NCBI GenBank assembly: GCA_009694475.1
Contig: SHUX01000003.1
Location: forward strand, 1 to 51,477
DNA length: 51,477 bases
Source: Thermoleophilia bacterium
GTDB taxonomy: Bacteria > Actinomycetota > Thermoleophilia > Gaiellales > F1-60-MAGs149
Reading direction: 5' to 3'
Part shown: one piece after another, positions 43,296 to 51,477 of the stretch
Numbering within the stretch: position 1 is the stretch's first letter
Layout of the letters: each line of letters begins with the position of its first letter
The notes under the pieces: generated by a model
What the model was told of the DNA's origin: nothing
The model's input: only the letters and a program-made list of their open reading frames with translations
The model's database searches: none
Position numbers and translations under genes: made by a program

Positions 43296-44450
43296 TTACT
43301 GCGTGTAGAGCTTGCTGAGGACGAACGTGCCACTCGTGCTGTCGACGTTCAAGATCGCCACGGGAACGTTCGAGCGGTAACCCGTCTCCGGGTCGATCGT
43401 GATGCTGCCCGTTGCACCGGAGAGGTTGGTGGTGTGGAACGCCTTCTTCGAGACGGCGCTCACGCTGAGCCTCCCGGCACGGCGAATCGCATTGACCAGC
43501 GTGTAGACGGAGTCGTAGGTGAAGATCCCCCACGGGCCAGGATTGGCGCTCAACTTTTTGGCGTAGTTCTTCACGTACGCCGTCGACTTGGCGTTACCAA
43601 ACTGGCCTGGCGTTGGCACACCACTAAACGTGCAGGCTGATGCTGCCGGAATGCCGGCCTGCTTGACGAAGGCAGCGTCCTGGTTAGCGAGCCCCATGAA
43701 GCACTTGGTCGGATGGTCGGCCTGCGCAGCGAACAGGTTCTTGGCGATGATTGCGCCCTGCGGGTAGTAGGTGCTGACGTAGACGACATCAGGATTGTTC
43801 GTCACGGCCTGCGCAACCTGCGCAGTGAAGTCCTTGCTCTTGGCATCGATTGGGATCTTTGTAACGAGCACGCCCTGCTTGTTGAGCGCCTCGAACATGC
43901 GGTCTGCCATACCCTTGGTGTAAGCGTCAGGGTCGTACAGGATCGAGACCTTGCCAGCCTTCTCTGCCGTCATCCACTGGACCTCAACGGGCGAGATCTG
44001 CGAGTTCTTCGGCTGGACAGTGATACCCATGTTCTTGGTGTCGTCGGTCGAGGTCAACTGAACTGGAAACACCCCGGCAGCAATAAAGATTGGGAGATTC
44101 GCGATACCAACGGACGAGTTGTACGGTCCGATCAGCGCGAATGGCTGCTGCTTGACAAGGTTCTCCGCAACCGTCACACCAATCGATGGTGTCGCCTTGT
44201 CATTGCCGGTGATCAACTTGATCTGCAGTCCAAGAACGCCCCCTGCCTTGTTGATCTCGGCAATAGCGAGCTTGGTGCCCCGCAGCATGTCTTGCCCGTT
44301 GGCGGCCTGTCCACCCGTTAATGGGCCTTCATACGCGAGCGTCAGCACCTCCGAGCGTGGCGCCAAGGATCGCGCAGCAGCAACTGGGACGACAATCGCA
44401 GCAATCGTGACGACCGCAAATAGGCTGATAAGACGATAGTGCACGTGGAC
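43296..44450 (-). CDS. ABC-type branched-chain amino acid substrate-binding protein (LivK-like)
   Basis: Signal peptide; LTLAYEGPLTGGQAANGQDMLRGTKLAIAEINKAGGVLGLQIKLITGNDKATP; FALIGPYNSSVGIANLPI. Exact start uncertain. Confidence 0.87.
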   Translation of the reverse strand, partial: VHVHYRLISLFAVVTIAAIVVPVAAARSLAPRSEVLTLAYEGPLTGGQAANGQDMLRGTKLAIAEINKAGGVLGLQIKLITGNDKATPSIGVTVAENLVKQQPFALIGPYNSSVGIANLPIFIAAGVFPVQLTSTDDTKNMGITVQPKNSQISPVEVQWMTAEKAGKVSILYDPDAYTKGMADRMFEALNKQGVLVTKIPIDAKSKDFTAQVAQAVTNNPDVVYVSTYYPQGAIIAKNLFAAQADHPTKCFMGLANQDAAFVKQAGIPAASACTFSGVPTPGQFGNAKSTAYVKNYAKKLSANPGPWGIFTYDSVYTLVNAIRRAGRLSVSAVSKKAFHTTNLSGATGSITIDPETGYRSNVPVAILNVDSTSGTFVLSKLYTQ

Positions 44451-44505
44451 TCTCTCGCGTTTCGAGTGACGTGACTGTAGCGATCCTCTCGGCGACGACA
44501 ATCCA

Positions 44506-45204
44506 TCAGTCTTTTTCGTGGGCTACGTTACCAACGGGCCGCCCGAACCCACCAATACTCGTGTTGAGTCGCCATCCGCTGTAGGTGTGCTCGCTGACAG
44601 CGTCGCCCGAGTTGCCTTCAATGGTGTCGATCGTTAGCGGCGTCACCCGTCGCACGATGCCGACGTGGCCGAACGTAAACCAGACCACATCACCAGGCTG
44701 CGGGTCGGCGACGAGTCGGTCGCGAAACGCGCTCCGCTCGGCAAACCATCCTCGAACATCCAGCGTCCAACCCAACCGCCAGCCACCGGACGCGCCCCCT
44801 GTAAACGGTCGCCCGGCGGCGCGCAACACCCAGGAGACGAAATCGGCGCACCACGCTTCGGCATTGTCGTCCGTAAATTCGCTGATACCTGGCCCACTAT
44901 TCGAGCCGGGTGGCGCCTCCCTAATCTGCATCTGCAGCAGTCGTTCCGAAATCGCGACGATCGAGCCCCCGTCAATTGTCGGGAGCGGTGTGACTGGTAG
45001 ACTTAGGAAGGTAGGTACTGCCAAGCCACCATCAGCGCGTCCAGTGCCAGATTGCCCAACCTCGGCAAACAGTGGTGACAAACGCGGCAGCAGCACGAGG
45101 CCGCTGTTGGAGGTTTTCACGGCGATCGTTGCCAACACGGTACAGGCCAGCAAGACGGCGACCCACTCCGTCGTCGCCTGCCCCAGTCGCCGCGCGAGCG
45201 TCAT
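44506..45204 (-). CDS. Class III prepilin-like (TadE/Flp-type) N-terminus fused to a CHAP-type cysteine amidase/endopeptidase
   Basis: MTLARRLG|QATTEWVAVLLACTVLATIAV (G-1, E+5, hydrophobic helix) followed by AEAWCADFVSWVLRAAG, PQPGDVVWFTFGHVGIVRRV, IDTIEGNSGDAVSEHTYS. Confidence 0.8.
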   Translation of the reverse strand: MTLARRLGQATTEWVAVLLACTVLATIAVKTSNSGLVLLPRLSPLFAEVGQSGTGRADGGLAVPTFLSLPVTPLPTIDGGSIVAISERLLQMQIREAPPGSNSGPGISEFTDDNAEAWCADFVSWVLRAAGRPFTGGASGGWRLGWTLDVRGWFAERSAFRDRLVADPQPGDVVWFTFGHVGIVRRVTPLTIDTIEGNSGDAVSEHTYSGWRLNTSIGGFGRPVGNVAHEKD

Positions 45205-45827
45205 GCAATCACCGGTCCGATCAGACTGCGCAACACGAGCGCTTGACCACCGATCACGATCAACAGCGCTGCCGGTGCCAGCAGTCCACCGATCACGAGC
45301 AGCATCTTGGGCGCAGCCGCGGCGGCGCGTTTGCGAGCCTCGGCACGCGCCTGCAGTCGAGCATCGGCGGCAAGCAGACGCAGTGCTCCCGCGATTGGAA
45401 CCCCCAACTCTTCGCTCTGCTGAAACAACGATCCCAACGAGCGGAGAGCGGGATCGGCAGCGCGTAACGAGGCTCCTAGGCCGAGTACGGTGGCAGTCCG
45501 CGTCGCATCGACGAGCACGCCCCTGAGCGGTTCGGATGAGAACGTGGCCACCCGCTCGATTGCAAGCTCGGGCGCCGCGCCGCCATCAACGGTTGCCGCC
45601 AGCAGCTCGAGCACATCCGGGAGGGCGTTCGTGATCGCGCTCGCCCACCGCTGCTGCGCCGAGCGCTCCCGGCGGCGGGTCGTGACGAACCCCACGCCAA
45701 AACCGATACCACCACCACTGATGGCGAGCACTACATTACCCGTCCCCAGCCACCCCAGCCAGAGCCCTAGACACCCCCAACTTGCCAACCACACGAGCCA
45801 CGTTGCACGGCGCGGGCGTGGTGTCAC
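45201..45827 (-). CDS. Type II secretion F-domain protein, TadC-like
   Basis: GTG start at 45827; ALPDVLELLAATVDGGAAPELAIERVA, LFQQSEELGVPIAGALRLLAADARLQARAEARKRAAAAAPKMLLVIGGLL. Confidence 0.88.
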   Translation of the reverse strand: MTPRPRRATWLVWLASWGCLGLWLGWLGTGNVVLAISGGGIGFGVGFVTTRRRERSAQQRWASAITNALPDVLELLAATVDGGAAPELAIERVATFSSEPLRGVLVDATRTATVLGLGASLRAADPALRSLGSLFQQSEELGVPIAGALRLLAADARLQARAEARKRAAAAAPKMLLVIGGLLAPAALLIVIGGQALVLRSLIGPVIA

Positions 45828-46387
45828 AACCCCACCGCCCGCGCGATGCGCCGTAGTAGGAGCAGTGCGATGCCGGTCAGTCCCGCTGCCACTCCGATAA
45901 TCACAAGCCCAGGCCCGGTCGTAAACAGCGCTGCAAGTGCCGACGGCGCGAGCACGGTCAGGAAGCCGAGCGAGACGACAGGTGCAAGCGGCACAATGCG
46001 TGCGGCCAGTCTGGCCTGCGCGGTAGCAACTTCCGCCTCGAGTCGTAGCCGCTCGCGATCGGCGAGCCCTTCGGCGACAGCCGCGAGCGATGCGACGAGA
46101 TCGCCGCCGAGCTCCTGATGAAGCTCGATCGTCCCCACCAGCACACTGCCGCCTGGTACGGCAAGAAGTGGCGCGAGAGCGCTCCGGGTCGCAGCGCCAG
46201 AGCGCAGGCCAGCCGCACACGTTCTGAGCAGGTCGACGACCACCTCGTCAACTGCATCCGCCGCGCGCTCAAAGGCATCTGCGATCGGCAGGCCCGCAGC
46301 ACAGCACCGTGCGAGTGCCCGAGCAACCTCTGGCAGCGTCTGTGCGATAACGCCCACAGTCGGTCCGTTGCGTCGGGAGAACCTCAT
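45824..46387 (-). CDS. Type II secretion F-domain protein, TadB-like
   Basis: LPEVARALARCCAAGLPIADAFERAADAV, ELHQELGGDLVASLAAVAEGLADRERLRLEAEVATAQARL. Confidence 0.82.
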   Translation of the reverse strand: MRFSRRNGPTVGVIAQTLPEVARALARCCAAGLPIADAFERAADAVDEVVVDLLRTCAAGLRSGAATRSALAPLLAVPGGSVLVGTIELHQELGGDLVASLAAVAEGLADRERLRLEAEVATAQARLAARIVPLAPVVSLGFLTVLAPSALAALFTTGPGLVIIGVAAGLTGIALLLLRRIARAVGL

Positions 46388-47325
46388 CGCTCGAACACCC
46401 GAATCTGCCACCCAGCACCCTCTCGCTCAACGCTATGGATCGAAGCCACACTGCGTCCGCCGTCAGGAGACCGCACGACATGCACAACGGCATGGACCGC
46501 CGACGCGATCTGCTCGCGAATTGCGGTGTGGGGAATATCAACGCCACCCATCAGCGCCATCGTCTCCAACCGGCGCAGTGCATCGTCAGGCCCGTTGGCA
46601 TGGATCGTGGCGAGCGAGCCATCGTGGCCCGTATTCATCGCGAGCAGAAGGTCGATCGCCTCACCCCCGCGGATCTCTCCCACGATCAGTCGATCCGGTC
46701 GCATCCGGAGCGCGTTACGGACGAGTTGGCGGAGGTCGATTGCTCCCCGTCCTTCGACGTTGGCGGGGCGCGCTTCGAGCCGTGCGACGTGCTCGGCCTG
46801 AACCGACAACTCGGCGGCGTCTTCGACCGTCACGATCCGTTCACTGGCCGGCACCAACCCCGTCAGCGCTCCAAGTAGCGTCGTTTTGCCCGTTCCTGTG
46901 CCACCACTGATGAGGGTGTTACGACGGCCCCTGACGAGCGTGGTCAGATCGCGAGCCTGCTCCGATGAGATCGCGCCACGTGCGACAAGATCGCTAAACC
47001 GCAGTGCCGCGGTGCCGAAGCGACGAATGGTGATCAGCGGGCCGTCGACGGCAAGCGGCGGTAGCACGACGTTGACTCGCGAACCGTCCGGCAGGCGAGC
47101 GTCGACCATCGGCGTCGCGTCGTCGATGCGCCTCCCGCAGGCCGACACTAGGCGGACCGCCGTCTGTCGCAACTCGAGCGAATCACGAAAGCGTGTGTCA
47201 ACGCGACGCAACTTCCCATCGAGTTCAACCCAAACGTCGAAGGGGCCATTGACGACGACCTCGCCAACCTCAGGGTTCATCAGCAGTGGTGCGAGCGGAC
47301 CAGCCAACGACAACAAGAAGGTCAT
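46384..47325 (-). CDS. Tad secretion ATPase CpaF/TadA
   Basis: LISGGTGTGKTTLLGALTGLVPASERIVTVEDAAEL; PDRLIVGEIRGGEAIDLLLAMNTGHDGSLATIHAN. Confidence 0.93.
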   Translation of the reverse strand: MTFLLSLAGPLAPLLMNPEVGEVVVNGPFDVWVELDGKLRRVDTRFRDSLELRQTAVRLVSACGRRIDDATPMVDARLPDGSRVNVVLPPLAVDGPLITIRRFGTAALRFSDLVARGAISSEQARDLTTLVRGRRNTLISGGTGTGKTTLLGALTGLVPASERIVTVEDAAELSVQAEHVARLEARPANVEGRGAIDLRQLVRNALRMRPDRLIVGEIRGGEAIDLLLAMNTGHDGSLATIHANGPDDALRRLETMALMGGVDIPHTAIREQIASAVHAVVHVVRSPDGGRSVASIHSVEREGAGWQIRVFER

Positions 47326-48026
47326 CCGCGCTTCCTCGGTCCGAGGGAGGCGATGCGACCTTCGATGAGGAGGAGCAACTCGTCACCGTGCTGCACATCG
47401 ATGCAGTTGAGCTTTCCCCTTAGTCGCCCTGAGATGCGTTCGACGATCGTGGGAGCGGTTGGACACACCACAATCCGCGCGGCATCGACGCCGAGCCGAG
47501 TGAGTCGCTGCTGTGTCTGGTTGATTGTCTTAAGACGATTGGCGTGCCCAACGATGACGACGACATCCGCATCAAGCACCGGCTCGCAGGACGGTCCGAC
47601 CGGTCGTGCCACATCGATCACGATCAGTGAGGCCTGTCGCATCGCCTGTCTCGTGAGTGCGCGCAGCGTGCCGTCCCGAATCAGCCAGACCAGTTCGGGT
47701 CGTGGGCCGATCTCAACAAACCAGCCGAACGGCGCTCGCTGTGCGAGCGTCGCGAAGGCAGTCCCGTCAGCCTCCCGCACGCCAGCCAGGCCTGCATCGC
47801 CAATGCGAGGTTTGAGACCAAGTGCGACTCCCAGCGTTCCACCGGCTAGGTCCGCATCAACCAGGCAGACGCCCCGATCGCCACCGCGCGCGATTGCCAG
47901 TGCCGCCGTCGATGTACCGGCCCCACCATGCGCGCCAACGAGCACAACCGAACGGCCAGTCGAGCCGACACGCTCGATCGATTCGAGCAACGGTCGAGCC
48001 TCGTAGTCTGCCTCGAGCAGTGCCAT
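47322..48026 (-). CDS. CpaE/TadZ-like MinD-family ATPase
   Basis: SVVLVGAHGGAGTSTAALAIARGGDRGVCLVDADLAGGTLGVALGLKP. Confidence 0.8.
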   Translation of the reverse strand: MALLEADYEARPLLESIERVGSTGRSVVLVGAHGGAGTSTAALAIARGGDRGVCLVDADLAGGTLGVALGLKPRIGDAGLAGVREADGTAFATLAQRAPFGWFVEIGPRPELVWLIRDGTLRALTRQAMRQASLIVIDVARPVGPSCEPVLDADVVVIVGHANRLKTINQTQQRLTRLGVDAARIVVCPTAPTIVERISGRLRGKLNCIDVQHGDELLLLIEGRIASLGPRKRG

Positions 48027-49213
48027 CAGGTGGCCCCATCAGTCTGGGGAATCCGCAAGGCGACGCGAGTTCCACCACCGGGGCGGGATTCAAACCGAGC
48101 CTCACCACCAACAGCCGCAGCCACCCTGCGCACGCTCGCGAGACCCAGCCCGGCCCGTCCAGGACAGTCCGAACCCTGCCCAAACGCCGCGCCCAGCGAT
48201 CCTGCGTCGAAACCAGCGCCAGCGTCCTCAACGACAAACTCAATCGCACCTGACTCGACCTGTGTTACGCCCAGTGAGATCTGGGTTCCAGGAGGGGCAT
48301 GACGGGCTGCGTTCTCGGCAAGGTTTGCGACCGCACGGGCGACGCTCGCGTCAACGGAGACGCGTACTGAAGGTGCCTGCGTCAGGTCGATCTGGGGCGA
48401 TGCGTGCTCGCCACCGCGTAGTCGCTCGGCAACATCGAGCAAGAGTTGGTCGGCTGCAATTTTCTGTCCTTTGCTGACGACGGCAGAATTGGTCTCGCGA
48501 CAGAGCTGCAGTACATCGTCGGCAATCGCAGCCAGGCGGTCGCACTCTCGTTGGATCAGTGCCCGGGCACGGGCCCGCTCGATGCTATCCGTAGCGCGTT
48601 CGAGACGGTCTCCCGCCAAGCAGATCCCCGTCAGTGGACTGCGCAGATCGTGAGCCACAATGCCGACCAGTTCGACCTGTGACTGCGCCTGATGTAGCAG
48701 TGTTGCCCGTAGCGCGTCGACCGCGCGCACGAGCGGCTCCGTCGACGTCGACCGTAGCGGCGCTTCGTCAACTGCAGAGCCACCGCCGAGTGAGCGAATC
48801 GTTCGGCAGGCCTGCTCAAGATCACGGGTTCGCGCGAGCCCGGTCCAGAGTGCCCAGCCCGCACCCGCCAGTGCGCCCGTGCCGAGCACCAGCAAAAGGC
48901 CACGCCAGAGTCCGCGAGACAACGCTGCGGCTGTGTGTACGGGAACGCGGACCATGCGCCCATCGTCAAGTGGAGCGCTCGCGACGACAGTCTCTGGTCG
49001 CGAGTGTTGTCCAACGATCGTCGCGTCCGTCGAGGGAATCCCCCCTCGTTGAATCAGACGTGCTGCCAGGTGAGCCTCAACCGCAGCAGAGGCTGCAGCA
49101 GCACGATTGGACTCCACCGTCGCCGGCCCCACGACAAAGGTATCGAGTGCCATCGTCAGGGTCGCGCCAATCGCCATCGTCGCAACTGCGACACGGAGCC
49201 AGAGGCGTGTCAT
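48026..49213 (-). CDS. Sensor histidine kinase
   Basis: MTRLWLRVAVATMAIG..., LVGIVAHDLRSPLTGICLAGDRL (H box), NLAENAARHAPPGTQISLGV (N box), PGRAGLGLASVRRVAAAVGG (G box). Confidence 0.92.
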   Translation of the reverse strand: MTRLWLRVAVATMAIGATLTMALDTFVVGPATVESNRAAAASAAVEAHLAARLIQRGGIPSTDATIVGQHSRPETVVASAPLDDGRMVRVPVHTAAALSRGLWRGLLLVLGTGALAGAGWALWTGLARTRDLEQACRTIRSLGGGSAVDEAPLRSTSTEPLVRAVDALRATLLHQAQSQVELVGIVAHDLRSPLTGICLAGDRLERATDSIERARARALIQRECDRLAAIADDVLQLCRETNSAVVSKGQKIAADQLLLDVAERLRGGEHASPQIDLTQAPSVRVSVDASVARAVANLAENAARHAPPGTQISLGVTQVESGAIEFVVEDAGAGFDAGSLGAAFGQGSDCPGRAGLGLASVRRVAAAVGGEARFESRPGGGTRVALRIPQTDGAT

Positions 49214-49899
49214 TGCAGCACCGTCCGCAGGGAGTACCCAACGCTCCAATTGTTGATCACCCACGGACCGTCAGAACTCGCTGCCAACCGGCGCCGTAGA
49301 CGCGAGGCATGCGAGTCAAGCGTGCGCGTGCCGCAGTTGCGATAGCCCCAGATCCGCTCCATCAGATCCTCCTTCATGTGGACCTTGTGTGGATCACGCG
49401 CGAGCACGGCGAGCAGCTCGTACTCTTTACCCGGTAGGTGGACCAAGACACCATCGAGCGTGACCGCACGGGCGGCCAGATCCATCGTCAGTGAGCCAAC
49501 CGTGAGGACGGAGCCGACGCGACCATTCAGCCGCGACTCCAACGAAGCCGTCCGGAGTAGGAGCTCCGGGTAGCTGAACGGTTTCACGATGAAGTCGTCC
49601 ACGCCGCGTTCGAACGCGCGAACCCGATCCTGTTCGGTGCCGCGACCGCTGACAACGATCATGCCAATATCGGACGCACCGGCCTCACCCATCCGAACTT
49701 TTCGTACGACATCAAGGCCAGAGCCATCCGGAAGACTGACGTCGATGAGCGCAATATCGGGGCGAGCGCGGCGTAGCGTGGCGAGCGCGTCCGTCGCCGT
49801 TCCGACCAACGTCACAGCGTGGCCGTCCTCACGCAGGTTATCGACGAGGAACTCCGAGATCACCTGGTCGTCTTCAACCACCAGCAAGCTTGCACACAT
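49210..49899 (-). CDS. OmpR-family response regulator
   Basis: MCASLLVVEDDQVISEFLVDNLREDGHAVTLV...DIALIDVSLPDGSGLDVVRKVR; winged HTH DLMERIWGYRNCGTRTLDSHASRLRRRL. Confidence 0.93.
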   Translation of the reverse strand: MCASLLVVEDDQVISEFLVDNLREDGHAVTLVGTATDALATLRRARPDIALIDVSLPDGSGLDVVRKVRMGEAGASDIGMIVVSGRGTEQDRVRAFERGVDDFIVKPFSYPELLLRTASLESRLNGRVGSVLTVGSLTMDLAARAVTLDGVLVHLPGKEYELLAVLARDPHKVHMKEDLMERIWGYRNCGTRTLDSHASRLRRRLAASSDGPWVINNWSVGYSLRTVLQ

Positions 49900-50611
49900 A
49901 GTCTCTATTCCTTTGGGTTGTTCCACTCGCCACCGACGGCAGGGCCTCGGGGGTCGCGTGGTGCCTCTCGCTGAGGCCAGAGCGCACGGTAGGCAGATCG
50001 CGAGCCCCAGCGCAAGCGGCTCGTGGGTAGAGGTGAGAGGGGTCGCCAGAATCGGCTTTAGTCTGTGGAGATTGCTGGTTGCAGCGTCCCCTGGCTGGCT
50101 CGATGCCCCGCTCAACCAGCGTCAGGCGCCGACCAACAACGAGGCTGCGAGCGGCTGCTTGACCGGCGGCAAGCTCGAGCTGAACGACACCTCCCGGCGA
50201 CCACCGCAGGCGACGTGGAGGCACGTGCGGGGAAACCTCTCTGACCTGCAGTTCGCGCGAGAGAAACACGATGTCGATCGAGCACCGCATACCGAAGGTG
50301 TGGATGCATCCGAGTGGATCCCGCAGCAGTAATCCCCACTCCGGATCGATCGACGTAGAACCAATCAGCCCTCGCATCGCGCCTAGGCTGAAGGCAGCAA
50401 CCGTGGTCACCGATGGTACGAGCACAAGGCCCGAGTCGTAGTCGCGAAGTTCAACCATGCCGCCACCGTTGCGCACCCACTCGGACCCTGGACGCGCGGC
50501 CGACGCGGAGACCACTGCGCGATACACGCCAGATCGGTAGCGGCGCGCACACACTCGAATCAACCGCCACCACTTCGCTACGCTCCTCACGTGGACTGTG
50601 AAGACTTTCAC
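49874..50611 (-). CDS. DUF192 domain protein with unusual C-terminal extension (start uncertain)
   Basis: AAFSLGAMRGLIGSTSIDPEWGLLLRDPLGCIHTFGMRCSIDIVFLSRELQVREVSPHVPPRRLRWSPGGVVQLELAAGQAAARSLVVGRRL is DUF192-like. Confidence 0.72.
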   Translation of the reverse strand: MKVFTVHVRSVAKWWRLIRVCARRYRSGVYRAVVSASAARPGSEWVRNGGGMVELRDYDSGLVLVPSVTTVAAFSLGAMRGLIGSTSIDPEWGLLLRDPLGCIHTFGMRCSIDIVFLSRELQVREVSPHVPPRRLRWSPGGVVQLELAAGQAAARSLVVGRRLTLVERGIEPARGRCNQQSPQTKADSGDPSHLYPRAACAGARDLPTVRSGLSERHHATPEALPSVASGTTQRNRDYVCKLAGG

Positions 50612-51031
50612 TCGGGCGACGACGTTGTATTGGCTTTTCTAGGCTGCACCTATTCCTTTGCGCGAGCCGACTTCGAGCAACGCGTATTGAGCGCCGCAGT
50701 CGAGCTCGAACTGGCAGAGCACCCACTCAGTCGCTCTGTACGCGCCGATCTGGTGACAGCAGCCATCGAGGGCGAACTCCCCGATCCCCATTCTCGCGTC
50801 GGCGAGCAACTGGTCGATCTCTGCGAGCGCGACGGCGAAGACCCCATCTACTGGCTACGCAAGCTCGTCTTTCGCTCGGCCTGGCTCGACCACCGCATCA
50901 AGCACGGGCTCGTCGATGTTCAATTCGATAATGCCGCGGGCGCCTTTCGGATCGAGCCGGGGCGCTACCCTCTACCTGGCGGGGGCAATCCTTCGTTCGC
51001 CACACTCACCGTTCCAGAGGATCGCGCATGA
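50591..51031 (+). CDS. Hypothetical protein
   Basis: 146 aa, plausible codon usage; stop overlaps the next ATG. Confidence 0.6.
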   Translation: MDCEDFHSGDDVVLAFLGCTYSFARADFEQRVLSAAVELELAEHPLSRSVRADLVTAAIEGELPDPHSRVGEQLVDLCERDGEDPIYWLRKLVFRSAWLDHRIKHGLVDVQFDNAAGAFRIEPGRYPLPGGGNPSFATLTVPEDRA

Positions 51032-51471
51032 CCGACGACACCCCACAGTACGAGCCTGACCTAACAGCAGAGATCGATGAGGTCAAGGAGATCGCCGCAG
51101 ATCTACGGGCCGTCTTGCCAACGCGGATCGAGGCAGCGGTCGCTCGCGCACTCGACGCGCACGAGGGCACCGGTGTTGATCATCGTGTCGCCGAGTTGCA
51201 CGCGCTGGCGATCGATACGGCGCAACGTACTCGCGCGCTTGCTGCGGACATTCGTGCCGAGCGCGTTGGCCGCGTCGAAGACCTCGAGGTTGTCGTTGAC
51301 GTCCTTGTCGATGGTCTAGGTGCTGTCCGCGGCGATGTCGCGAAACTCGAGGCGCGCTCGCAGCGCATCGAGAAGGAACTCGAGCGCATCACGTGGGCGA
51401 TCGATCGGGTCGGCTCGCAACTCGAACGCATCGCCGATGCTGACGAGCCTTCGTCGCCACCGCACGCCTAG
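51028..51471 (+). CDS. Hypothetical coiled-coil protein
   Basis: 147 aa, heptad-rich (VEDLEVVVDVLVDGLGAVRGDVAKLEARSQRIEKELERITWAIDRVGSQLERI). Confidence 0.6.
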   Translation: MTDDTPQYEPDLTAEIDEVKEIAADLRAVLPTRIEAAVARALDAHEGTGVDHRVAELHALAIDTAQRTRALAADIRAERVGRVEDLEVVVDVLVDGLGAVRGDVAKLEARSQRIEKELERITWAIDRVGSQLERIADADEPSSPPHA

Positions 51472-51477
51472 AGGGTG

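Follow-up and report, generated by a model that had tools for sequence, protein, structure and literature searches.

A CHAP-domain prepilin encoded with the Tad machine of an uncultured thermoleophilian bacterium

The last gene of a tad operon in an uncultured member of the Thermoleophilia encodes a protein in which a predicted Tad/Flp-class prepilin leader is joined to a CHAP domain. We consider this protein to be a modular minor pilin of the Tad (type IVc) pilus that cuts a passage for the filament in the cell's own wall, a reading to which we assign a probability of roughly 60%. The window, meaning the whole stretch of DNA analysed, is an entire contig of 51,477 nucleotides that ends at position 51477. 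An earlier note made from this sequence had placed a pilin-like N-terminus and CHAP motifs in a single frame at 44506..45204, and all of the motifs it quoted are present there. The 232-aa gene lies on the minus strand, the plus-strand frame over the same positions being interrupted by stops, and its ATG overlaps the tadC stop in a shared ATGA, an overlap that the note had also described.

The N-terminus consists of the leader MTLARRLG (residues 1-8; 45181..45204, minus strand) followed by QATTEWVAVLLACTVLATIAV..., so that the junction reads MTLARRLG/QATTE and is followed by a hydrophobic helix. From the sequence and its conserved motif, prepilin peptidase is predicted to cut after G8, which places G8 at -1, Q9 at +1 and E13 at +5. 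The glycine at -1, the glutamate at +5 and the helix behind them mark the protein, by its sequence, as a predicted Tad/Flp-class prepilin. When all six frames were scanned under strict settings for a prepilin leader with a hydrophobic helix behind it, the 51.5-kb window yielded one match, the CHAP-prepilin frame itself, and the same scan of 24 related loci matched only pilins of tad clusters. When a looser leader scan was applied to 389 kb, 28 matches were obtained in the real sequence compared to 5 in the same sequence reversed; the leader motif of the CHAP prepilin is beyond chance. The Pfam models TadE (PF07811) and Flp_Fap (PF04964) gave no match to the protein at E values up to 1, and we therefore do not assign it to TadE, though these models are insensitive here and missed the cluster's own clear Flp pilin too. 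Across the genus, Pfam alone detected neither family.

The C-terminal part is a CHAP domain. Pfam CHAP (PF05257) matches residues 113-198 (44611..44868, minus strand) with E 8.2e-12 and a score of 45.9 bits (cut-off 26), and the assignment is supported by alignment as well as by a structural model and its fold matches. None of the catalytic residues C119, H180, E196 and N198 varies among the 13 aligned homologues, which come from three genera. In the AlphaFold2 model, a helix spans residues 3-34, the linker is disordered and the C-terminal part is confident, with a block of pLDDT 85-95 at residues 151-220. The best Foldseek match of this model was Ly7917 (7e-4), followed by PlyPy, Spr/MepS (an NlpC/P60 enzyme) and PlyC, with whole-chain TM-scores that are modest owing to the helix and linker. 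The predicted structure thus has a papain-like CHAP/NlpC fold, and the lack of such a fold, which the earlier note had named as a point against it, is not the case. A profile search of solved-structure sequences gave nothing useful.

Both ends of the protein are conserved. Q9 and E13 are invariant in all 13 homologues, and G8 is present in 12, with Ala in the remaining one; this pattern does not bear out the ordinary Sec signal that had been considered as an alternative. Mean pairwise identity among the CHAP prepilins is 0.77 over residues 8-13, 0.38 over residues 14-32, 0.19 in the linker (33-73) and 0.72 over residues 113-198. Between near relatives, dN/dS of the CHAP part is 0.07-0.19, values that are rough because several synonymous distances approach saturation. 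Judged from these comparisons, the prepilin-CHAP fusion is real and under purifying selection. With its leader and helix followed by CHAP, the protein has the make-up of a modular minor pilin, in which a pilin module is joined to a functional domain that is not pilus-specific.

The gene closes a conserved minus-strand operon whose order is response regulator, histidine kinase, TadZ/CpaE-like ATPase, TadA, TadB, TadC and CHAP prepilin. The OmpR-type response regulator (49210..49941; Pfam Response_reg and Trans_reg_C) and the histidine kinase (48026..49264; Pfam HATPase_c and HisKA) are supported by conserved order, and the start of each is uncertain. The P-loop ATPase at 47322..48026 matches TIGR03815 (CpaE_hom_Actino) at 4.3e-10, below the cut-off, and occupies a conserved position. 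TadA (46384..47325) matches Pfam T2SSE at 8e-59 and the TadA family TIGR03819 at 3.4e-105, just below the cut-off; it is the sole strong T2SSE-family match in the window's assembly, and most genomes of the genus likewise have one, with none in two fragmented ones. TadB (45824..46411; 2.6e-12) and TadC (45201..45827; 2.5e-8, conserved order) are both T2SSF-family proteins by Pfam with uncertain starts. Together, the TadA, TadB, TadC and TadZ-like genes are identified from sequence as a Tad system, the TadZ-like call being a sub-threshold match combined with position. The order was kept wherever the context was fetched, across three genera. A SAF/RcpC-like gene precedes TadZ in the sister genera, and none is found at that place in the window's genus. 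Of the earlier note's interpretation, a prepilin-type CHAP protein encoded with a Tad machine is supported, and this protein is under purifying selection.

Several neighbouring features were also considered. An ABC substrate-binding gene downstream (43296-44501) was rejected as part of the operon: it follows in the genus and is absent there in the sister genera. On the plus strand, a pair of small genes of no known family (50591-51031 and 51028-51471) is conserved in the genus, where it separates the tad operon from the minor prepilins. The two-component system (48026-49941, minus strand), part of the operon, accompanies such tad clusters in families f2 and f4 too, which suggests signal-dependent activation of the pilus.

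The remainder of the pilus machine appears to lie beyond the contig end. Two close relatives, G005 and G010, have further genes in the cluster: a pair of ~275-aa minor prepilins and a 69-aa Flp pilin whose leader reads RRGQGTVEYLG. The window's own genome carries two minor prepilins and Flp at the start of contig C24, which we infer from the relatives to join the window's end; the 69-aa RRGQGTVEYLG protein on C24 matches the G005 Flp at E 1.5e-36. A 210-aa A24 prepilin peptidase is encoded on contig C124 of the same genome, and tadV is unlinked as a rule in actinobacteria (PMC4322843). With Flp, its A24 peptidase and this pair of minor prepilins encoded in the genome, the sequences indicate a complete Tad system, in which one major prepilin is accompanied by three or more minor ones. 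The two related minor prepilins on C24 (~275 aa; L262:318-1145 and 1138-1956) adjoin Flp and share a conserved C-terminal domain, RAGD..CR...VVRAG, with no Pfam family. The model of one of them was weak and without a PDB match, and a MamE match of one was ignored as weak and far below the cut-off. The earlier note's reading lacked Flp and these two prepilins. We had entertained the CHAP prepilin as the machine's only substrate, an idea abandoned when a motif scan and protein searches found the other three in the cluster; the best reading is that it is not the only cargo and, since the cluster also encodes Flp and two other minor prepilins, that it is one minor, modular pilin among them.

The fusion has a narrow distribution. 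Homologues were found in 12 of 13 genomes of the genus, the window's own included, as well as in two sister genera, represented by G013 and G015, with the gene directly 3' of tadC wherever that context was present. The one genus genome without a homologue (G007) is 71% complete and has no TadA match either, and none was found in the 70% complete genome of a third sister genus (G014). In searches of 399 class and 397 phylum genomes, members of the family (f1) scored ~280 bits or more and everything else <98 bits; no comparable fusion was detected outside f1, nor did these searches reveal the fusion homologues outside a tad context for which the earlier note had proposed to look. A quick tree placed the family's CHAP domains in one group (SH-aLRT 92). 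The hosts are uncultured, mostly freshwater bacteria, represented here by metagenome assemblies only. Two public MAG records titled 'Bifidobacterium breve' (L032 and L038) bear the tad cluster and neighbourhood of the genus and seem to be mislabelled.

The sister family f2 offers a clue to the origin of the fusion. At locus L285, the order response regulator, histidine kinase, SAF, TadZ, TadA, TadB and TadC is followed by an 84-aa prepilin, MHRGQATIEYVLLLTALMVGLCVLVRYETP..., without CHAP. At a second f2 locus (L261) a prepilin motif occupies the slot after tadC, and the frame beyond the helix does not look coding. The first gene calls had suggested that nothing follows tadC in f2, a view discarded once the motif scan and a second genome revealed the small prepilin. 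Since the sister-family slot holds a prepilin without CHAP, the simplest history is apparently that CHAP was joined onto a small existing minor pilin in the ancestor of f1.

CHAP relatives of the fusion are also found beside other machines. Same-class relatives adjoin flagellin in 6 of 7 fetched neighbourhoods, and flagellin lies beside CHAP in 16 of 37 same-class sequences overall, many of them on short pieces. At six loci (L276, L277, L278, L280, L281 and L282), flagellin genes are adjoined by short CHAP proteins whose coiled N-terminus (MSxExxLxRIxxL...) is conserved; these proteins may be flagellum-specific wall hydrolases of the class. The closest relatives in Patescibacteria adjoin a VirB4/TraG-type ATPase. 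A Saccharibacteria locus (L042, L044) has a VirB4/TraG-type ATPase followed by a 744-aa protein combining GH43, phage tail lysozyme and CHAP. Like the fusion, the flagellin-linked and the Patescibacteria relatives are encoded beside a trans-wall machine, but they have no prepilin leader and form tree groups separate from the fusion family. We accordingly do not claim that the fusion CHAP derives from the class's flagellar CHAPs, which the tree keeps apart from it. By analogy, related CHAP domains appear to recur beside trans-wall machines.

These observations lead us to propose the following mechanism. In the host actinobacterium, presumably single-membraned, a TadV-type A24 peptidase would cut the CHAP prepilin after G8, and the TadA/B/C machine would take up the mature helix as a minor subunit beside Flp and the other pair of minor prepilins. 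Held outside the membrane on a flexible linker, the C-terminal CHAP domain would then cleave the cell's own peptidoglycan at the pilus exit, giving the filament a path through the wall. We favour this own-wall role because of the precedent of LytF, the analogy with CHAP relatives beside trans-wall machines, and the single conserved copy of the enzyme, beside whose operon no immunity gene or other toxin was seen. LytF is likewise a CHAP hydrolase, one that eases the passage of a type IV filament across a Gram-positive wall: in Streptococcus sanguinis it promotes Com pilus extrusion and raises extracellular ComGC, and its active-site Cys is required for efficient transformation (PMC13192262). 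Unlike the fusion, LytF is secreted as a protein of its own that has Bsp repeats but no prepilin leader, and it serves the Com pilus. The fusion is nonessential to Tad pili generally, because other actinobacterial Tad pili and the sister family do without it.

Several other placements of the enzyme were weighed. First, a position at the tip would expose it to other cells too, which counts against a purely own-wall reading. It is conceivable, though we think it somewhat unlikely, that the initiating tip complex includes the CHAP minor pilin, which would breach the cell's own wall at first extension and could then cut the wall of a touched cell; if so, every new Tad filament would start with its own wall-cutting head. 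Second, the protein could have a purely basal role, which we regard as unlikely. The Tad/Flp pilus of Micrococcus luteus resembles the present system in its actinobacterial Tad genes, minor pilins near tadC and unlinked prepilin peptidase; its TadE and TadF were not found in sheared pili, and a base or cross-wall structure has been suggested for them (PMC4322843). Those minor pilins are ~150-aa TadE/F-like proteins without a described hydrolase domain. Against such a role for the fusion, its active-site Cys, His, Glu and Asn are all invariant, and a mere binder would not need them.

Third, the earlier note had proposed delivery of a wall hydrolase for remodelling or for attack on other cells; nothing seen here speaks specifically for attack. 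A CHAP minor pilin at the filament end that cuts neighbours' walls on contact, for killing, predation or DNA release, seems to us quite unlikely. The Kil system of Myxococcus xanthus is, like the system described here, a Tad-type pilus with specialised minor pilins, and its tips are needed for contact killing (PMC12075869). Those tips consist of KilLMN trimers, are coupled to a needleless T3SS and kill prey, with no CHAP described (PMC12075869, PMC8460266), whereas no killing is known for the fusion system and no Kil-type tip fold was seen, the weak model of the other minor prepilin giving no interpretable match. The CHAP fold is akin to those of phage lysins, and ComEC in 12 of 13 genus genomes makes DNA uptake conceivable; ComEC is widespread, however, including in relatives without the fusion, and neither an immunity gene nor another toxin adjoins the operon. 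The CHAP domain is also slowly evolving across species, unlike many antibacterial effectors. Lastly, although many CHAP proteins are secreted by Sec signals, an ordinary secreted or membrane-anchored CHAP hydrolase with an accidentally prepilin-like N-terminus is very improbable, given that the motif occurs in 0 of 99 CHAP proteins from outside the family, that Q9 and E13 are invariant while the remaining N-terminus varies, that the cluster's Flp and its other two minor prepilins have the same RGQ..E leader, and that linkage to tadC holds in every genome with that context.

Proteins of this modular type are known from other filaments. According to one survey, modular pilins come in 264 architectures, and a predicted peptidase domain features in one of the more frequent of these; S. 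sanguinis PilB and PilC, described there, resemble the fusion in that a functional domain foreign to pili is joined to a short pilin module and produced together with a type IV filament machine, but their domains are adhesive (vWA or lectin) and borne by type IVa pilins, in place of a peptidoglycan hydrolase domain behind a Tad-class leader (PMC8179133). We found no prepilin-CHAP protein in the literature, covered mostly without subscription papers, and no wall hydrolase among the pilin modules in the literature searched; such an enzyme would be added to the modules grafted onto pilins. According to a 2025 paper on the RcpC structure, the Tad pilus, unlike other appendages, has no reported peptidoglycan hydrolase or lytic transglycosylase, and its passage through peptidoglycan is an acknowledged gap (PMC12307814). 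The fusion offers a candidate enzyme for this step, and with hydrolase and pilus subunit in one gene, the place, timing and activity of wall opening would be coupled to the pilus itself.
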